Shown here: positions 7,694-23,333 of the stretch, in pieces
Layout: every line of letters starts with the position of its first letter
Position numbering within the stretch: position 1 is the stretch's first letter
Source of the DNA: Salinibacter ruber DSM 13855
GTDB lineage: Bacteria > Bacteroidota > Rhodothermia > Rhodothermales > Salinibacteraceae
DNA: 64,000 nucleotides
Assembly (NCBI RefSeq): GCF_000013045.1
Contig: NC_007677.1
Span: forward strand, 372,001 to 436,000
Direction: 5' to 3'
Notes under the pieces: model-generated
What the model was told of the DNA's origin: nothing
The model's input: the letters and a program-made list of their open reading frames with translations, nothing else
Databases searched by the model: none
Program-made: the position numbers and the translations under genes

Positions 7694-8203
7694 CTACTCG
7701 GCAGGGGGGGAGCGTCCCGCCACGGTGCGGTCGCTGGGCGACGGGTTGAGATGACTGGCGCCGGGGGTGAACAGAAGGACGGGGGTGGCGGAGATGGAGA
7801 CGGAATCGGCCACCAGTTCGCCGCGCACGCGATACACGAGGAGCGAGGAATTCACCGACCGGTTCTTAAAGAAGAGGCTGCGGAGCCCCTGCACGCGTTC
7901 GTCGGACCACCGGTCGGTCTTCGACACGTAGTTGGCCACGTCGTTCTGGTTGATGCCCTTCGGCGCCAATGGGTAGGACGCGCCAGGAAGGCTCTGAAGC
8001 GATACCGCGTCCCACGAGAGGGTGTCGGGGTCGGTCTGGGATGGCATCTCGCGGACCATGGCCCGGGTCCAGGGATTGCCCGCCTGTGAGAACATCGGGT
8101 AGATGCTAAACGGCCAAAATTCACCGAGGTGGGTAGCTACGAGCAGGGCGTAGACCACCAACACCCCACCCACAATTTGGAGGGCGCGCTTGGGAAAGCC
8201 CAT
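7694..8203 (-). CDS. Single-pass protein with WPFSIYPMFS motif, HTTM partner
   Basis: A 169-residue protein with one N-terminal helix (about residues 8-27), then GEFWPFSIYPMFSQAGNPW and a soluble, probably periplasmic or membrane-adjacent domain. The ATG at 8203 was preferred over an in-frame TTG three codons earlier. I do not know a named function. Small proteins with this WPFS-x-YPMFS turn are recurrently found next to HTTM/carboxylase-like membrane proteins, here 47 bp downstream, and this pairing is the main clue. It appears to be the first gene of the minus-strand run ending at 2655, since the next 460 bases upstream are non-coding and separate it from a divergent gene. Confidence 0.65.
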   Translation of the reverse strand: MGFPKRALQIVGGVLVVYALLVATHLGEFWPFSIYPMFSQAGNPWTRAMVREMPSQTDPDTLSWDAVSLQSLPGASYPLAPKGINQNDVANYVSKTDRWSDERVQGLRSLFFKNRSVNSSLLVYRVRGELVADSVSISATPVLLFTPGASHLNPSPSDRTVAGRSPPAE

Positions 8204-8212
8204 GGGGCACAA

Positions 8213-8668
8213 AGTTGGCTACTGAGGGAAAGACCTATCGGAAGAAGGACGTCGTCGGCTTGGGGGGCGGCGTCCGGCGCTCTTCCGAACGGACCCACCA
8301 AGGAACGGTGCGTCCGCAGAAAAGGGCCGGTGGAATGCAGTGTAAATTTCGGCACAACGAGACGTAGAAGTCAAGCCGTCCGGGCTGCAGGCCGGCACGG
8401 AAAGGAGGACGTGTAGGACGAGGGCGAGTGTGCAATTGGTCTCGGAATTTGGTGTAAACGTTTCGGTGAGGGAGCACGCCGCAACCGTGTGTGTACCTGT
8501 GGGGCCTCTTTGGGGCTGCGCGGCTGGACCGAGACGGCATCCGGCACAGTTACTTCTGGAAGGCCGAACGCGGCGTCATGGACGGAGCGTGGCCGTGAAC
8601 GGAACGGACCAGAACGCGCGAAGAATGGGGGAGAAGGTGCTCACTCCTTTTCAACCAAATGCTCTCCT
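8213..8668. other. Divergent intergenic region
   Basis: About 455 bases separate the minus-strand envelope cluster from the plus-strand DUF3047 gene. No open frame here looks like a real protein. The segment must carry two divergent promoters; AT-richer patches lie near 8335-8360 and 8430-8465, but I could not assign a -10/-35 pair with confidence. Confidence 0.4.
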
Positions 8669-16186: not shown

Positions 16187-16879
16187 CTACGAGCGGGCGG
16201 CCGCGTCGGCCCGGAGATACCCCATCTCCACGAGCTGGTCGTGGAGGGGGGCGTCGCCGTCGAGCGGAACGCACTGCTTCTGCCACAGGACGTACGCGTC
16301 GTCGGCGAGCGGTGTCACGTGCTGGTGGTAGTGGTCGGTGAGGAGGACGCCGGTCCCCTGTGCGGCCGCTTCCTCAATGCGCCGACCGATGGCGTCGATT
16401 AGGAGGGGCTCCACGCCCGTGAAGGGCTCGTCGAGCAGGACGTAGTCGCGCTCCAGCCCCAACACGATCGCGACTTCCAGAAGCCGCCGCTCGCCCCCGG
16501 AGAGGGTCCGCACCGTCCGGGTGGGGGAGGAGGCGAGTTGGTCGGGGACGTGGTGGGACGACAGCCCGGCACTCCGGACGAGGGTCCGCACGGTCACGTC
16601 CGGGGGAAGCATTGACTCCTGAGGCAGGTAGGCGATCGTCGAGAACCGTTTCCATTTCGACTGCTTGTGCAGCCGCGTGCCGTCGATGATGGTGAGGCCG
16701 CTGTTGGGTTGAATCTGCCCGGCGGCCACCTTCAGTAGGGTCGTCTTGCCGCTGCCGTTGCGCCCGAAGAGGCCGGTGATCGCTCCCGCGTGGGCCTTCA
16801 GGTGCACGCCCTGGAGGATGTCAAGGCTCGGGACCCGGTAGAACACCCCATCCAGAATGAGGGCCGAGTCGTCGTTCAT
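16187..16879 (-). CDS. ABC transporter ATP-binding protein
   Basis: A 230-residue ATPase subunit of an ABC system, located on the cytosolic side of the membrane. Walker A is GLFGRNGSGKTTLLK (about residue 37), Q-loop IAYLPQESML, signature TLSGGERRLLE, Walker B DYVLLDEPFTGVE, and H-loop TDHYHQH. All catalytic residues are present. It starts 7 bp after the stop of a 92-residue membrane protein, so these two are translationally linked; that small protein is the only visible candidate for a membrane partner, which is much smaller than a usual permease. The gene is at the end of the BlaI-headed run of minus-strand genes. Substrate unknown. Confidence 0.9.
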   Translation of the reverse strand: MNDDSALILDGVFYRVPSLDILQGVHLKAHAGAITGLFGRNGSGKTTLLKVAAGQIQPNSGLTIIDGTRLHKQSKWKRFSTIAYLPQESMLPPDVTVRTLVRSAGLSSHHVPDQLASSPTRTVRTLSGGERRLLEVAIVLGLERDYVLLDEPFTGVEPLLIDAIGRRIEEAAAQGTGVLLTDHYHQHVTPLADDAYVLWQKQCVPLDGDAPLHDQLVEMGYLRADAAARS

Positions 16880-16886
16880 GGTGGGG

Positions 16887-17165
16887 CTACAGGCAGAAGG
16901 CGAGCGTCAGGGTGAGCGGCTGGACCGCGAGGAACAGTGCCCCGAGCAAAATGACGGGCGGCCGTCGGAGGTTGTCGTACAGCGGCCACACCTGCTTTTT
17001 CCGGAAGCGCCAGTAGGTGTAGCCGGCCGCCGCCGCACTGCCCCAGAACAGAGCGGGCACGAGGGTCGCAGCTAGCGAACCGCCAAAGAGGACGGGAAGC
17101 AGGCCAAAGGCGGCCGCAAACACCAGCGTGTTCGCGAGGTACTTTTGCGCCAGATAGACGATCAT
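16887..17165 (-). CDS. Small membrane protein next to ABC ATPase
   Basis: A 92-residue protein with three hydrophobic stretches (about residues 10-28, 33-48 and 70-92) separated by a basic loop (YWRFRKKQVW). I do not recognise a family. It starts 22 bp after the second S41 protease stop and ends 7 bp before the ABC ATPase start, so it is surely in the same transcript. It could be a reduced membrane partner of the ATPase, or the true permease may lie elsewhere. Confidence 0.7.
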   Translation of the reverse strand: MIVYLAQKYLANTLVFAAAFGLLPVLFGGSLAATLVPALFWGSAAAAGYTYWRFRKKQVWPLYDNLRRPPVILLGALFLAVQPLTLTLAFCL

Positions 17166-17187
17166 GCTGCACAGCGGGGCGGTCGGA

Positions 17188-19107
17188 TCAGTTGGACGCG
17201 GTGGCCCCGCGCTCGCTGGATGGGGCCCGCCCGCTGGACCGGAGCACTTCTAGGGCTTTTTCCAGCACCTCGTCCCGCCCGTTCCGCACGCCCTCAATCG
17301 TGCGCTCGGCCTCGATGTCCGGCCGGATGCCGACGAGGTGGTGCTGGGAGCCGTCGTGCTTGCGGACGCGCATGCCGGTCCACCACACCTTGTAGCCGCC
17401 CGGAAGCTCAAAGGGGTTGACGTTTCCGTTCGCCCCGGCGGTCGGCTGGCCGACGATGGTGCCTAGCTCGTAGTGCTCCACGATGCCCATGATGGTCTCG
17501 GCGTAGCTGATGGCCCCCGGCCCGGTCAGAAACACTACGTCGCCGGTAATCTGTGGTTTTTCGGGGGGGAGCGTCCACCGCCCGGACGCGTCGTAGCCGA
17601 CGATCTTCTCCTGATCGGGGTAAATGAACTGTGGTTTCTGGAACCGGGCCGATCGGAGCGTGTCCCCGGACAGGTGGGGCAGAAGCTTGAGCGCACCGCC
17701 GGTTGGGTACCCCCGAAGATCGAAGACAACCCTGTCTGCGTCTGCAAGCTCCCCGATGTGCTGCCGGAGCGTAGGCCACACGGCCCGAGTGAGATCAACG
17801 TAGCGAACGCCGGCGCGGAGCGTATCTACTGTGTTCGGACGATCATCCACCTGAAGCTGTCGCCAGGGGATGCGCCGGTCGGAACGCGTCACCTTGCACG
17901 TGTTCTCGGCGTTCCCTCGCCGAACGGTGAGAGAGACAGGCGATCCTGGGTCTCCCCGCCCCAGCTTTTGCAGGGCCCGCCCCTCCGTCCACTGCGGCGA
18001 GCCGGAGATATACCGCTTCCTTTCCTGCAACCGCTGCTCGGGAGGACGACCACCGATCGACACGACCACGTCTCCGATGTCCGGACACAGAGTCCGATCG
18101 AGGTGCCCCGCGGTGTCTACGACGACGATCTCGTCCCCGATCCGACCAAACCGGACGGGCAGTCCGGAGGTGGAAGACGTTCCTGAGTGAACCACTCGGC
18201 CATGCCCGTCCTCCAGTTGGGCGACCATGCGACGAAGGGTCTGGACAAACTCGGTCGTCGACGTGTCATCGGCCAGGGCCCGTCGAAAGGTGCGCGTGAG
18301 CACTGCGTCCCAGTCGACGTCTACGGCCCCGAAGTACGGGTAGAAGTGCTGGAAGACGTTCCAGGCGATCGTCACGCCCGCGAGCCGAAGCGAGGAGGTA
18401 GTCTTAAGAATTGGGGTCTCGACGTGGCTGAGCGAGTCCCGCAGCGCAGACGGCGAGGGGGCGTTCGCCGGGCGGAGTGTCTGTCCGGCCTCCCCGTACA
18501 GAGCGAGCGGCAATTGAACAGACAAGCCTCGCCCCAGCGGCTTCGCCGTCATTTCCTTCGGGGCGGCGTGTGCCTCGAAAAGCCGGTCTCGCCCGGGGGG
18601 GCGATTGAGACGGATGCTACGGTATGTTCTGAGCGAGTCGTTCAATCGACGGACCTTGCTCGGAACGTTGCCTTGAGAGAAGCCGATCCCTTGGTGTTGC
18701 CAAGCCACGAGATTCAGCCCTGCCGTATCCGAGGGCGCAAGGACGTCGGCGGGCGTAGGCGGCTCGTTCCCAGTCCGGTACAGCTGGATCGTCGGCGCGA
18801 TCGGCTCGAAGAGCGCCTCCAGTTCGGCCCGCAGTTCGGCCCGGTTGGCGGCGTTCCTTACCTGCCGCACGCCGTGGATGGCAAACGCGTCCCAGTCGGT
18901 ATTCGCCGCCGCGTCGCTGGGGTGGAAGTAGCGGACGTAGCCGTAGAGGGTGGCGAAGGCACGAAGATTTTCAACCTGCTCGCCTCGTGGTGGGTCGGTT
19001 AGCCCGAGCGTGTCGCGGTACGTGTACGTAAGGGCGGCGGCCCCGGCGAGAAGCACGAGGCCCGCGGCAACCAGCGTAGATCGGCGCACTTTACTGAATA
19101 GAGCCAT
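17188..19107 (-). CDS. S41 family (tail-specific-type) peptidase, membrane-anchored
   Basis: A 639-residue envelope protease with an N-terminal signal-anchor (residues 9-28). Domains: an S41 N-terminal region (LYGYVRYFHPSDAAANTDWD), a PDZ-like part (VVVDTAGHLDRTLCPDIGDV), and the S41 catalytic core with the serine in GAISYAETIMGIVEHYELG and the strand VVFDLRGYPTGGAL. Length is normal. It is strikingly similar over its whole length to the C-terminal half of the preceding gene (17 bp upstream), for example AWNVFQHFYPYF, GHGRV, ISGSPQW, GANGNVNPF, SQHHLVGIRPD, so the two arose by tandem duplication. Compared with that paralogue it lacks an inserted beta-sandwich segment. Likely substrates are periplasmic or outer-membrane proteins. 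Confidence 0.88.
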   Translation of the reverse strand: MALFSKVRRSTLVAAGLVLLAGAAALTYTYRDTLGLTDPPRGEQVENLRAFATLYGYVRYFHPSDAAANTDWDAFAIHGVRQVRNAANRAELRAELEALFEPIAPTIQLYRTGNEPPTPADVLAPSDTAGLNLVAWQHQGIGFSQGNVPSKVRRLNDSLRTYRSIRLNRPPGRDRLFEAHAAPKEMTAKPLGRGLSVQLPLALYGEAGQTLRPANAPSPSALRDSLSHVETPILKTTSSLRLAGVTIAWNVFQHFYPYFGAVDVDWDAVLTRTFRRALADDTSTTEFVQTLRRMVAQLEDGHGRVVHSGTSSTSGLPVRFGRIGDEIVVVDTAGHLDRTLCPDIGDVVVSIGGRPPEQRLQERKRYISGSPQWTEGRALQKLGRGDPGSPVSLTVRRGNAENTCKVTRSDRRIPWRQLQVDDRPNTVDTLRAGVRYVDLTRAVWPTLRQHIGELADADRVVFDLRGYPTGGALKLLPHLSGDTLRSARFQKPQFIYPDQEKIVGYDASGRWTLPPEKPQITGDVVFLTGPGAISYAETIMGIVEHYELGTIVGQPTAGANGNVNPFELPGGYKVWWTGMRVRKHDGSQHHLVGIRPDIEAERTIEGVRNGRDEVLEKALEVLRSSGRAPSSERGATASN

Positions 19108-19124
19108 TGTGAGGGAGGAAGCGA

Positions 19125-22100
19125 CTACGGGGACCGTTCGAGAACGCGGAGCGCCGTCCGAAACACTTCGTCCGTACCGGCCCGCACCCCCTCGACGGTG
19201 CGCGTGGCCCGCACGTCCGGCCGGATGCCGACGAGGTGGTGCTGAGACCGGTCGTGCTTCTGGACGCGCATGCCCGTCCAGTAGACCTGGTATTGCCCGG
19301 GAAGCGTAAATGGATTCACGTTTCCGTTCGCCCCGGCGGTCGGCCGGCCGACGATGGTGCCCAGGTCGTAGTGCTCCACGATGCCCATGATGCTCTCGGC
19401 GTAGCTGATGGCGCGGGCATCCGTCAGGAACGCGACCTCACCGCTAAGCTGTGGCGACTTCGGCGGGAGGGTCCAGCGCCCGCCCGTGTAGCCGGCAATC
19501 TTGCGGCGATCAGGATAGATGATTTTCGGAATCTCGAAGTGGGCCGAGCGGAGCGTTTCGGACGAGAGGTGCTGGAGGAGCTCCTGGTTGCCGCCCTCGG
19601 GGTAGCCGCGCACGTCGAAGATCACCGACTCGGCCTGGGCGAGCGTATCGAGACGGGGGCGGAGTGCCTCCATCCCGACCCGTGTCAGGTCGACGTAGTG
19701 GGTGCCGCCCGGGAGCACGTCGATCGAATCGGGCCGGGGCTCGGCCTGGAGCCGGCGCCGCTTGCGCCTGCGGGTCGAGCTGTCGCTCGGTCGGGCAACC
19801 TGGCACGCCACCGCCTGTCCCTCCCGGCGAAGCTCAAGACGGGCAGTGGTTCCAGGCCGCCCCTCGCCAAGCTGCCGGAGGGCGCGGACCGTCCGCCACT
19901 GCGGGGAGCCGGAGATGGAGCGCATTTCTTCCTGAAGGGCCTCCTCGATCAGCGTGCCGTCGATGGCGGTCAGCACGTCTCCGGGCCGCGCGCAGCTTTG
20001 GGCCGCGGCGGAGGCGGCCGTGTCGGCGACCACCACATTTCCCTCCACCCGATCGAACTGGAGCGGGAGACCGGCCGTCAGGCTGTCGGCGGGGTGCGAC
20101 ACGCGCCCGTGCCCATCCTTCAGGGGCACCAGCATCCGCCGGAGCGTGCGCAGAAAGTCGCGACTGGACGTATCGGCCTCGGCGCGCTGGAGGGTTCGAG
20201 TCAGCACCTGGTCCCAGTTGGTGTCTACGACCTCGAAGTACGGGTAGAAGTGCTGGAAGACGTTCCAGGCGATGACGACGTCCGCGAGGCGCAGCGCCTC
20301 GTCCGCCGCGGAGAGCTTGCCCATCTGCACTGCGTCCAGCGTATTGTGGAGACGGTCCGGGGAGGGGACGCCGTCGGGGCGAAGCGTTTGGTCGTTGTGG
20401 CTGTAGAGCGCAAGCGGAATTTGGGCAGAGAGGTTGCGTCCGAGGGCCGTATTTGCCACTTCTCCCGAGGCAGGATGAGCGTCGAAAAGACTCGCCTCCG
20501 ACTGCGGCGAAATACGTAGCTCAAGGGAGCGTTCGCCCGCATCCACCTGCTCGGACGCTACCGCCACCTCCGCCCCTGACCGGCCAAATGTTCGCCAGCC
20601 GGCGGGCTGGCCGTTCTCTCCTTTGTTCTCGAAATTCGAATTGGTAATCTCAATTGGCGTCCAATCCTCCTCAGAGGAGCCTCGGACAGAAAGCTCCACT
20701 TGATCGATCCAGGCAGTTCCGGGTTTCCGGATGGTAGCCCCGACGGCAATCTGCCGTGCGTCCTGCGCCACAGTATCCAGGCGTGGCTTCACACGTGTCC
20801 AGTTCTTTGCCGAAATTGGCGAGTCATAAAGGTCTTCGGGCGAAGGGCGTTGGTTAGGACGGAGGATGGCGAGCCAGAGGTGCGCAAGGTTTGTGGTCGT
20901 GTCGGTCTTTACGGCTGCGTCAAGGCGAATCTGCTTCCCGCGGTGCGGGGTGGCGTCGAGCCCCTGCATGGCCTGTGCAATTGGCGGTCGGTTCGTGCTG
21001 TCTTCGTGTGCTCGATGAAGACGCGCGCTTTCGTACGGCCCGCGGTTGCCGAGGCCGAGGCCCTTGTGCTGCCAGGCGACGAGGTTGAGCGCTGAAGTGT
21101 CGGCGGCCGGAAGCACACGGTGCGGGGCGGGCGGGGGGGCGCCCGTCTCGTACCACTGGATCGTCGGGGCGATCGGTGTGAACAGCGAGTCCAGGGTCGA
21201 GCGCAACTCCGCCCGGCTGCTGGCGCCTGTCACCTGCCGCACGCCGTGGACGGCAAACGTCTCCCAGTCGACCTCCGCCGCCGCGTCGCTGGGGTGAAAG
21301 TAGCGGACGTAGCCGTAGAGGGTGGCGAAGGCCCGCAGATTTTGAATCTTCTGATTCGGCTCCGCGGCCCTGCGAGCCGACATCTCCGCGTCAGACACCG
21401 TGGTGGCAGCCAGGCTGCTCCCCGACCGCTCCGCACGGGGATACCAGTCGTTGGGAAGAGGGCGGACAGCCACCACCAACAGCGTCAGCACCAGGCCGAG
21501 CGTTCCGAGGAGCGCCCTGCGTCTGGGCGACCAGGACGCAACGTCGTCCCGGCCTACGATGGCGAGGATGCGCTCCTTAAGCCGCGTGGGCCGGGCGATC
21601 TGCAGGGCGGGGGTGGGGACGTGATTGCTCACCGCACGGCGCGCGGCCGCCAGCAGTTGATGGGCGTACGTCTCAGGATCTTCGCCCGCGGCGAGCACCG
21701 TCTCGTCGCAGGCCGCCTCGCGGGCCTGAAGCAGCTTCGACCACCCCGTCCAGGCCAGCGGATTGGGCCAGTGCAGCGCGCGCCCGAGCTGCCCGACAAG
21801 CCCCAAAAGCAGGTCCCTATGCTTCAGGTGGGCCATCTCGTGGAGAAGGACGAGCCGCTGTCGCTCGGGGGGCCACTCTCGGGCGGAATCTGGGAGGAGG
21901 ATCGTCGGGGAGAACAGCCCGAGCGACATCGGCGTCGCCCCCGGGTGAAACCGAATCTCGGCGGTACGCCCCGAGCCAAGCTGCTCCTGAACTTCTTGGA
22001 GGCGTTCGTCCCAGTCCGGGGCGTCGGCCCGGCGGGCCTGCCGGCGGAGGCGCCGGGATCGCAGATGACCGACCAGCAGGCGAGCCAGCAGCAACACCAC

Positions 22101-22610
22101 CCCGGTCCCCCAGACGCCGAGCAGGACCGGTCCCCACGCCCACCCCAGCAGCCAGGATGATTCGTCTGCACGGCCCTCGCCGAGCGCCGAGGTGGAGCGG
22201 CCCGGGGACGCGCCCGCCCCGCCCGACGCTCCGGCAGACGCGGAGGTGCGCCCCTCCCCAGAGGCCCCGGACGCCGACTTCGAATCGGACCACGGCTCGT
22301 CACGCCGTGAGGACGGCCGGCGGACCGCCGGCCCGTTGGCCGAATCGTCCGCGAGCCGTACGACCTCATCGACCGGGTCGGGGAGGGACGACTGCGGTAG
22401 AACCATCTGCCCGATCGGCAGCGCCAGAAGCGCCGCAAATGCCAGGCCCCAGGCGGCCCGCGGAAGCGAGGCCGGCGCCTCCCATCGGCGGAGTAGCGCA
22501 CTCGCCACGTGGGCAAGAAGCAAGAGGACTGCGCCCTTCAGCAAGACATCGAGAAGGAGGGTGCTCAGATGGGACGACGCAAGAGGGCGAACCATTGGGC
22601 TCGGTGCCAT
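19125..22610 (-). CDS. BlaR1-type M56 metallopeptidase fused to S41 peptidase
   Basis: A 1161-residue two-protease fusion. Residues 1-400 are a BlaR1/MecR1-type M56 membrane peptidase: helices near 15-40, 50-70 and 155-180, the zinc site HEMAH at 257-261 facing the cytosol, the third ligand in REAACDE (298-303), and a fourth helix at about 375-395. In BlaR1 the following extracellular part is a penicillin-binding sensor; here it is replaced by an S41 protease (from about 430: LYGYVRYFHPSDAAA) with an inserted galactose-binding-like segment (about 560-690, NSNFENKGENGQPAGW), a PDZ-like domain and the catalytic serine in ARAISYAESIMGIVEHY. It lies 30 bp downstream of a BlaI repressor gene, so it likely cleaves or controls that repressor in response to an envelope signal. 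The start could also be the internal ATG at residue 6. Confidence 0.88.
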   Translation of the reverse strand: MAPSPMVRPLASSHLSTLLLDVLLKGAVLLLLAHVASALLRRWEAPASLPRAAWGLAFAALLALPIGQMVLPQSSLPDPVDEVVRLADDSANGPAVRRPSSRRDEPWSDSKSASGASGEGRTSASAGASGGAGASPGRSTSALGEGRADESSWLLGWAWGPVLLGVWGTGVVLLLARLLVGHLRSRRLRRQARRADAPDWDERLQEVQEQLGSGRTAEIRFHPGATPMSLGLFSPTILLPDSAREWPPERQRLVLLHEMAHLKHRDLLLGLVGQLGRALHWPNPLAWTGWSKLLQAREAACDETVLAAGEDPETYAHQLLAAARRAVSNHVPTPALQIARPTRLKERILAIVGRDDVASWSPRRRALLGTLGLVLTLLVVAVRPLPNDWYPRAERSGSSLAATTVSDAEMSARRAAEPNQKIQNLRAFATLYGYVRYFHPSDAAAEVDWETFAVHGVRQVTGASSRAELRSTLDSLFTPIAPTIQWYETGAPPPAPHRVLPAADTSALNLVAWQHKGLGLGNRGPYESARLHRAHEDSTNRPPIAQAMQGLDATPHRGKQIRLDAAVKTDTTTNLAHLWLAILRPNQRPSPEDLYDSPISAKNWTRVKPRLDTVAQDARQIAVGATIRKPGTAWIDQVELSVRGSSEEDWTPIEITNSNFENKGENGQPAGWRTFGRSGAEVAVASEQVDAGERSLELRISPQSEASLFDAHPASGEVANTALGRNLSAQIPLALYSHNDQTLRPDGVPSPDRLHNTLDAVQMGKLSAADEALRLADVVIAWNVFQHFYPYFEVVDTNWDQVLTRTLQRAEADTSSRDFLRTLRRMLVPLKDGHGRVSHPADSLTAGLPLQFDRVEGNVVVADTAASAAAQSCARPGDVLTAIDGTLIEEALQEEMRSISGSPQWRTVRALRQLGEGRPGTTARLELRREGQAVACQVARPSDSSTRRRKRRRLQAEPRPDSIDVLPGGTHYVDLTRVGMEALRPRLDTLAQAESVIFDVRGYPEGGNQELLQHLSSETLRSAHFEIPKIIYPDRRKIAGYTGGRWTLPPKSPQLSGEVAFLTDARAISYAESIMGIVEHYDLGTIVGRPTAGANGNVNPFTLPGQYQVYWTGMRVQKHDRSQHHLVGIRPDVRATRTVEGVRAGTDEVFRTALRVLERSP

Positions 22611-22640
22611 CTGTTCGTTTGCAATGCGGTGCGAGGGAGG

Positions 22641-23075
22641 CTACGGGTCCCCTGAAGCATCCGTCTTGGACGAGCCGGCCTCCGAGGATTCAGACGAGTC
22701 GTGCGCATCCTCGACGATTTGCTCCAACTCTCGGAGCGTCTCGGGAGAGAGGTCCTCGCTTTTCGCCGAGAGAAGCGTCGCGACCGTTTCCGACAGCGAC
22801 CCGCCGAAAAACGTCTCCTGTAGGTGGTCCAACAACGACCGGCGCACCTCTTCCTTCGGCCGGGTGGGAAAGTAAACGTAGCGGCGCCCCTCCTGCCGGT
22901 GGTCGAGGTAGCCTTTTTCCTCCAGGTGGCGGAGCATCGACCGGGTCGCGGAGTTGGAGGGCGGGTCGGGGAGCCTGGTGCGGATCGTCTCGGCCCCGGC
23001 CTCCTCCAGCCGGTACACCACGTCCATGATTTGGCCCTCGCGGCGACCGAGTTCGTTGTACAGAGAACCGTTCAT
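22641..23075 (-). CDS. BlaI/MecI/CopY family transcriptional repressor
   Basis: A 144-residue winged-helix repressor. The N-terminal DNA-binding domain reads LGRREGQIMDVVYRLEEAGA, then SNSATRSMLRHLEEKGYLDH and RRYVYFP, which is the BlaI pattern; the C-terminal part (ETFFGGSLSETVATLLS) is the dimerisation region where BlaR1 cuts the homologue. The acidic tail after residue 120 is unusual but common in halophile proteins. It heads a run of minus-strand genes: BlaR1-S41 fusion (30 bp), S41 peptidase, small membrane protein, ABC ATPase. It presumably represses its own operon by binding the dyad just upstream. Confidence 0.93.
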   Translation of the reverse strand: MNGSLYNELGRREGQIMDVVYRLEEAGAETIRTRLPDPPSNSATRSMLRHLEEKGYLDHRQEGRRYVYFPTRPKEEVRRSLLDHLQETFFGGSLSETVATLLSAKSEDLSPETLRELEQIVEDAHDSSESSEAGSSKTDASGDP

Positions 23076-23094
23076 GGGGGCGGATTGCGAGGGA

Positions 23095-23126
23095 GTGTTG
23101 ATTCTTAAACGTTAACACATCAACAC
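23095..23126. promoter_or_regulatory. Candidate BlaI operator (inverted repeat)
   Basis: GTGTTGAT at 23095-23102 and ATCAACAC at 23119-23126 form a perfect 8-bp inverted repeat around a 16-base AT-rich centre, and a second GTTAACAC lies inside. It is 20-51 bases upstream of the blaI ATG, where a self-repressing operator is expected. BlaI-family repressors bind such dyads. Binding is inference. Confidence 0.6.
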
Positions 23127-23333
23127 CATACGTTTCGGCGGGCCAAAAAGTCAAGGGCGGGGCCGACGCTAAGAGCAGGCGATTTTCAAGTGCACGCGGG
23201 CATGCCATGATGCGAGACGTGTTAGGGGCCCGCAAGCAGCACGAACATTTCCGAAACGTCGTGTCGTAGGAGTGCGGGACGCCGTAGAAGATTGAGCCTC
23301 TGCCTCCGTGTTCTTCACAGCCGCCCCCGCTCG

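Follow-up and report, generated by a model that had tools for sequence, protein, structure and literature searches.

A BlaI-headed operon of Salinibacter ruber encodes an M56 peptidase fused to an S41 peptidase, a possible receptor for peptides

Organisation of the operon

The window analysed in this study, i.e. a 64,000-nt stretch of Salinibacter ruber DSM 13855 (NC_007677.1, positions 372001-436000 of the 3551823-base contig), harbours five co-directional open reading frames (ORFs) on the minus strand, which encode, in order, a BlaI-type repressor, an M56 peptidase fused to an S41 peptidase (referred to here as the fusion), a second S41 peptidase, a small membrane protein and an ATP-binding cassette (ABC) ATPase (Table 1). 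The intergenic gaps from blaI to the ATPase gene are 30, 17, 22 and 7 bases, and ORFs, coordinates and domain matches all agree with an original prediction of these five genes that was made from the DNA alone. Upstream, the operon is bordered by a divergent gene from about position 23292, judged recQ-like by eye; a terminator scan was uninformative (5 found, 5.1 expected).

Pfam comparisons placed the repressor among the BlaI/MecI proteins (Penicillinase_R, cut-off 22.6 bits; score in Table 1) and identified Peptidase_M56 (PF05569; 107.1 bits, cut-off 31; residues 162-351) and Peptidase_S41 (39.9 bits, cut-off 24; residues 979-1134) in the fusion, Peptidase_S41 in the second protease (50.7 bits) and ABC_tran in the ATPase (87.1 bits, cut-off 25). 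The last of these was confirmed as an ABC ATPase by its Walker A (GRNGSGKT), signature (LSGG) and Walker B (VLLDE) motifs. The 92-aa membrane protein displayed no Pfam family above cut-off, and neither a beta-lactamase nor a penicillin-binding protein (PBP) is encoded among the five operon genes.

Table 1. Operon features and upstream DNA elements (positions in the window), with the loci sharing the upstream palindrome
Feature	Position	Strand	Basis
BlaI-type repressor, 144 aa	22641..23075	-	ORF; Penicillinase_R (PF03965), 84.4 bits
M56–S41 fusion, putative receptor, 1161 aa	19125..22610	-	ORF, Pfam, G003 homologue, structure model, motifs
M56 part of fusion (residues 1-395) with HEMAH 257-261, E298, D302 and four hydrophobic segments	21426..22610	-	Pfam, motif check
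Jellyroll domain of fusion (residues 538-702), reduced in GC; apparent exchange in S. ruber	20505..20999	-	Structure model, fold match
S41 peptidase core of fusion (residues 767-1161), His834, Ser1069	19125..20312	-	Pfam, model, CPAF match
Second S41 peptidase, 639 aa, fusion paralogue without jellyroll, N-terminal hydrophobic segment	17188..19107	-	ORF, Pfam
Small membrane protein, 92 aa	16887..17165	-	ORF, hydropathy; homologue directly upstream of ATPase in 6 other genomes
ABC ATPase, 230 aa, with Walker A, LSGG, Walker B	16187..16879	-	Pfam, motif check
Promoter-like TTGACT-18-TATGGT before blaI	23125..23154	-	9/12 matches; block kept in G003
Operator-like half-sites GTGTTGAT, GTGTTAAC, ATCAACAC, from end of -10 hexamer downstream	23095..23126	-	Weak palindrome match; kept in G003
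Palindrome of at least 15 bits in L042-L052, L056, L057, L059, L060, L062, L063, L072	Upstream of blaI

Conservation of the fusion

A full-length fusion was also found in a second species of the genus (genome G003), where it is 73% identical over residues 3-1161, forms a 1177-aa frame without stops and resides in the same operon and neighbourhood, with gaps of 30, 41 and 22 bases between blaI, the fusion, the second S41 gene and the membrane protein gene. BlaI is 93% identical between the two species. The ratios of non-synonymous to synonymous substitution rates (dN/dS) were as follows: BlaI 0.09, M56 part 0.34, junction (residues 401-520) 0.51, jellyroll domain 0.31 (at dS 1.9), S41 core 0.23, second S41 peptidase 0.30 and ATPase 0.28. 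A sequencing frameshift joining two genes at about position 21300, named in the original prediction as an event that would undo the fusion, is therefore ruled out, since the second species encodes the same open fusion and purifying selection acts on both its M56 and S41 parts.

Among the 13 genomes of the genus searched, some of which are incomplete, the fusion was present in two, including that of the window. The proposed survey of M56–S41 fusions and their neighbours covered four sets: searches with the whole fusion against 60 relatives returned G003 alone besides the window; the S41 part had a match at 1e-20 in 36 of 296 genomes of the phylum (longest other open frame 946 aa, versus 1171 aa in the window) and a match in 13 of 200 genomes of Gemmatimonadota, the phylum of locus L135 (longest open frame 904 aa); and none of the best 80 of 315 loci of S41 relatives encodes an M56 fusion. 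Thus, the survey recovered the G003 fusion and, in the genomes searched, no M56–S41 fusion elsewhere with this S41 subfamily, other S41 subfamilies being outside the systematic search. No description of such a fusion or of this operon was found in paper titles and abstract openings, a coverage that excludes most subscription journals.

M56 part and membrane topology

The motif HEMAH occupies residues 257-261 of the fusion, and the zinc-site residues H257, E258, H261 and E298, together with D302, are each present in all 26 rows of an M56 alignment. The M56 domain with its HExxH motif and downstream glutamate ligand is that of BlaR1/MecR1 proteins, while the NCBIfam model blaR1_generic scored 67.8 bits against a cut-off of 400 and aligned with residues 162-361 only. 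Hydropathy analysis revealed hydrophobic segments at residues 22-40, 53-71, 158-176 and 367-385 and, combined with the charge distribution, predicted the zinc domain to be located inside and the C-terminal part outside the membrane. This agrees with the earlier proposal that an S41 protease stands outside the membrane in place of the sensor. A structure model of the fusion (mean predicted local distance difference test, pLDDT, of 73) was poor in the M56 part and good from approximately residue 420 onward, where values mostly exceed 90.

Structure and variability of the outer part

The structure prediction proposed for the outer residues yielded a CPAF-like S41 domain together with a jellyroll, and the outer part as a whole is modelled as helical, jellyroll and S41 domains. 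In a fold search, residues 767-1161 matched CPAF (Z 22.4 over 376 residues, root-mean-square deviation 3.1-3.2) and the Bacteroides protease 4ghn (Z 25.4 over 366 residues), so that both the fold and the Pfam score identify an S41 peptidase. Residues 538-702 matched jellyroll glucanases (Z 9.6 over 139 residues), a moderate match for a domain that was not folded alone. S41 and jellyroll domains thus occupy the place of a penicillin-binding sensor domain, which the fusion lacks.

Profile alignment with solved S41 structures placed His834 and Ser1069 on the histidine and serine of CPAF, and these two residues are nearly invariant in an alignment of 14 proteins. The complete Ser/His/Glu triad of CPAF/tricorn-type S41 peptidases is not present, as the position of the glutamate is occupied by His1125; a histidine is also found there in most of the 14 aligned relatives. 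The S41 part, described in the original prediction as intact-looking, is consequently intact for serine and histidine and deviates at the third triad residue. The Ser/Lys dyad of S41A C-terminal processing peptidases was likewise not found, as none of the 14 proteins has a lysine 25 residues after Ser1069, the Ser-to-Lys spacing of Ctp. A PDZ-like stretch in the fused S41 part was weak (15.3 bits, below the cut-off of 27).

The jellyroll stretch differs from its surroundings. Third-position identity between the window and G003 ranged from 0.68 to 0.83 through residue 540 and from 0.47 to 0.86 beyond residue 720, versus 0.27-0.42 in residues 541-720, and the same stretch in the window has a GC content of 0.56-0.63 and a third-position GC content of 0.60-0.68, versus 0.72-0.90 elsewhere. 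Over residues 525-700, G003 is 62% identical to genome G007 (Salinivenus) and 36% identical to the window. The jellyroll was therefore, judging from these sequence comparisons, probably exchanged in S. ruber. Fast divergence instead of an exchange is a possible alternative, and the strong divergence of residues 661-720 between G003 and G007 (0.40) counts against exchange; among 100 relatives, no donor better than the G003 fusion itself (44%) was found.

Promoter and operator-like DNA

The promoter-like site before blaI is one of two in 7.7 kb on both strands, compared with a mean of 0.4 in shuffled sequences. Classical BlaI/MecI operators are of the TACA...TGTA type, and no such operator was detected when 276 bases in front of the focal blaI and 240 bases in front of that of G003 were examined.

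Among loci L042-L079, 34 have a BLAST match to the focal BlaI. With the window and G003 excluded, 24 of these, whose BlaI proteins are 37-54% identical to the focal one, were used for a motif search by expectation maximisation; the ten left out (L061, L064-L068, L070, L074, L076 and L078) encode BlaI proteins of 28-39% identity. An 18-base palindrome, RTGCTAA-N4-TTAGCAY, was identified upstream of blaI, with a likelihood of 183.9 versus 26-36 in eight shuffles (the shuffling reverting to a plain shuffle where the dinucleotide walk fails). Sites of at least 15 bits occur in 18 of the 24 loci (16 of 24 by leave-one-out), versus 4 of 163490 positions in the remainder of these loci, and thus in 18 of all 34 operons; two sites lie 54-62 bases apart in 14 of the 24. 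The palindrome is narrowed to operons with a closer BlaI. Its half-site is similar to that of CIRCE.

Before the focal blaI, the best site (23126-23109) scores 2.4 bits and starts within the -10 hexamer. Eight of 63983 window positions score at least as high, corresponding to approximately 0.03 expected in the intergenic region; among motif widths of 16, 17, 18, 19 and 20, the site ranks 22, 16, 8, 13 and 6, respectively, width 18 being the one quoted. In G003 the equivalent site reaches 6.9 bits, a level attained at 2 of 18984 positions, and in both species the weak match covers the promoter. We read the focal site as a candidate degenerate operator. For the predicted BlaI-headed operon, then, a promoter-like block and an operator-like match before blaI are conserved, the latter at a low score.

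Related operons and S41 neighbourhoods

A set of 20 M56 proteins, comprising 18 of other genomes in the order, one of S. ruber and one of Pseudozobellia, was scanned with Pfam. None of the 20 displayed an S41 match. Families above cut-off were found in 12 of them (HEAT in seven, DUF4097 in four, GH115_C in two and TonB_C in two, some proteins having two), and the remaining eight showed no convincing C-terminal family. Repeats of the form 'KYGVD', not assignable to a convincing family, also occur among the C-terminal parts encoded in L042-L079. The second blaI–M56 pair of the S. ruber genome (L068:2585-4682) has a TonB_C end, and in L067:1349-5648 (G024) one blaI is followed by two tandem M56 genes.

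Conversely, among the best 80 of 315 loci of S41 relatives, an M56 gene lies nearby in two: on the opposite strand in L196, and in L195 (Pseudozobellia) as part of a blaI–M56–S41 row of separate genes, in which a gap of 99 bases precedes S41. The same row of separate genes was observed in G264 (L109), with a gap of 645 bases. A further S41 relative (L117:41-8644, G086) is located in a lanthipeptide-type cluster with an exporter, an HlyD-like protein and an S8 peptidase; this cluster includes a LanM-like protein (268.4 bits, cut-off 304) and two precursor-like peptides, one above the pinensin-leader cut-off, and the lanthipeptide-leader pattern was found in L117 only among L109-L204.

Second S41 peptidase and origin of the operon

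Sequence comparison and a phylogenetic tree of 21 S41 proteins, six rows of which deviate in composition, identified the second S41 peptidase as a paralogue of the fused one. The two fused S41 domains pair with each other (97/98) and then group with a standalone S41 of G007 (91/90), and the second S41 peptidases of the window and G003 form a separate clade with one S41 of genome G006 (100/99). The jellyroll is missing from the window's second S41 and retained in that of G003.

G007 (L034, L125) has, at the same locus as judged by the recQ-like gene, a standalone 800-aa S41 (58-59% identical), a membrane protein (70%) and an ABC ATPase (75%), and its fetched stretch lacks blaI, M56 and a second S41. 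In two further genomes of the same family (G014 and G021), a standalone S41 occurs by itself. In G006, S41 gene fragments are present in the corresponding neighbourhood (L041, about 8000-8520), an S41 of the second type is located elsewhere (L037), and no close ATPase match was found. Because the locus of G007 comprises only S41, membrane protein and ATPase, the blaI–M56 module was probably added; the simplest account of these sequences is that it became attached in front of a secreted S41 that had already been duplicated. Loss of blaI–M56 in G007 is a possible alternative.

Membrane-protein/ABC pair

Immediately before the ATPase gene, G003, G007, G026, G054, G250 and G332 encode a homologue of the membrane protein (weak in the last, E 0.001), and an S41 gene adjoins the pair in the window, G003, G007 and L202. 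The last of these loci, of Ignavibacteria type (L202:2251-9229), carries, one after another, a 94-aa hydrophobic ORF, the gene of an ABC ATPase (41% identical) and two S41 genes; its 94-aa ORF gave no BLAST match to the 92-aa membrane protein, and no blaI or M56 match was found at the locus. The original prediction had suggested that the operon may have its own transporter. As the pair also stands without S41 and blaI in the stretches fetched from other genomes, we treat it as a plausible, putative transporter of the operon.

Discussion

The operon resembles BlaR1/MecR1–BlaI/MecI systems in that a BlaI-type gene is located beside an M56 gene whose product has membrane segments and a C-terminal domain of serine-hydrolase type predicted outside the membrane, and in that the operon includes an enzyme of the sensor's own family, as known for bla operons. 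It differs from them in that an S41 peptidase, accompanied by helical and jellyroll domains, takes the sensor position of the penicillin-binding domain, and in having no beta-lactamase or PBP, no TACA/TGTA operator and a low blaR1_generic score. Other blaI–M56 operons of the order share the gene order and related BlaI and M56 proteins, but the M56 proteins scanned are without S41. Relative to CPAF/tricorn-type S41 peptidases, fold, serine and histidine are shared, whereas the glutamate is replaced and the domain is fused to a membrane zinc peptidase. The G007 locus has the same place, S41, membrane protein and ABC ATPase, but not blaI, M56 or the second S41.

In BlaR1, according to PMC7593790, the outer domain is the sensor, the drug acylates its serine and the M56 domain then cleaves BlaI. 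We consider it an evenly balanced proposition that the operon is a BlaR1-type circuit in which a periplasmic S41 receptor senses peptides or polypeptides and induces a paralogous protease and a transporter; peptides or proteins, rather than antibiotics, are probably what is sensed. This reading is suggested by an outer domain that is, by fold and residues, a serine hydrolase, and by its free paralogue, parallel to beta-lactamase. The genes, the fusion, the conserved catalytic residues, the predicted fold of the outer part and, in two species, the promoter-like and weak operator-like block form its observed ground. Further points in its favour are the purifying selection on the fusion in both species, the predicted four-segment topology with S41 outside, the palindrome of the related operons, the S41 relative in the lanthipeptide-type cluster of L117, the ABC ATPase beside S41 in L202, and the rows of separate blaI, M56 and S41 genes in two other lineages, of which a rough estimate predicts approximately 0.03 by chance among 96 loci. 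By analogy with the family, BlaI would repress the operon by binding over the transcription start, and the M56–S41 protein would be embedded in the inner membrane, its zinc peptidase facing inward and its helical, jellyroll and S41 domains facing outward. The outer part might bind a peptide or an unfolded polypeptide, perhaps with acylation of Ser1069, and catalysis itself might be the signal; the activated M56 part would then cleave BlaI, allowing expression of the operon. The induced second S41, as a paralogue of the sensor, would degrade the ligand as beta-lactamase destroys the inducer of the bla system, and the membrane-protein/ABC pair might clear or export it.

Several observations weigh against this peptide-response circuit. 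Catalysis is not assured with His1125 at the position of the triad acid, and the M56 part was modelled at low confidence. The focal operator match has 2.4 bits, compared with 15-26 bits in 18 of the 24 other operons; none of the ten more distant blaI operons has a site of at least 15 bits, and the second blaI–M56 pair of S. ruber (L068) scores -0.2 bits. All four genomes outside the genus recovered by ATPase searches (G026, represented by a 6.4-kb contig only, G054, G250 and G332) have the membrane-protein/ABC pair without S41 in the fetched stretch, and blaI was likewise not found there. The 96 loci behind the chance estimate include duplicates, and the adjacency in two lineages was noticed after the fact; moreover, the S41 frame of L109 is broken by a stop, and S41 is not the sensor in L195, because the M56 protein there has its own C-terminal TonB domains.

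The foremost alternative, that of the original prediction, is envelope quality control, in which the S41 part, much like DegS or Prc, would detect envelope proteins that are misfolded or unprocessed and the operon would remove them. Ctp/Prc-type S41 peptidases are envelope proteases, the fold also matches CtpA, CtpB and Prc, though below CPAF, and the weak PDZ-like stretch would suit this role, but the Ctp catalytic lysine is absent (at the spacing given above), the operon contains no envelope-biogenesis gene, presence in two of the 13 genomes, not all complete, is patchy for a housekeeping function, and the jellyroll differs sharply between the two species. We regard quality control as clearly the less probable of the two, and, given that sensor and second protease are paralogues, the peptide-response circuit is at least as good a fit. 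Slightly more doubtful still is a more specific form of that circuit, in which an acyl-enzyme formed on a foreign peptide, e.g. a peptide antibiotic of neighbours, would be the signal, as with a beta-lactam in BlaR1. The free S41 would then correspond to beta-lactamase, the ABC pair would clear the peptide, the jellyroll would be an exchangeable recognition cassette, and the receptor would belong to a larger group of BlaI–M56 receptors in the order with plug-in outer domains.

It is unlikely that the M56–BlaI switch answers another cue and that S41 is simply an anchored effector enzyme. The unrelated C-terminal parts of other M56 proteins of the order (HEAT, DUF4097, GH115_C and TonB_C) and the separate S41 genes adjoining M56 in L195 and L109 would fit such tethering, but an anchored S41 would add little where a free paralogue exists, and the C-terminal outer domain is the sensor in BlaR1/MecR1 (PMC7593790). 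A chance or decaying fusion with no signalling function, to which its rarity (S. ruber and G003 alone in the searches made) and the S41 fragments of G006, with no close ATPase, might point, is very improbable given dN/dS values of 0.23-0.34 over the S41 core and M56 part, the retention of all M56 motifs and the identical operon order in both species.

The S41 domain at the sensor position and its paralogue within the operon suggest a BlaI–M56 switch that works as a general signalling chassis and takes varied outer domains; to our knowledge, BlaR1-type receptors have been studied almost only as beta-lactam sensors. The shared palindrome and the list of outer domains make this idea testable in culturable bacteria.

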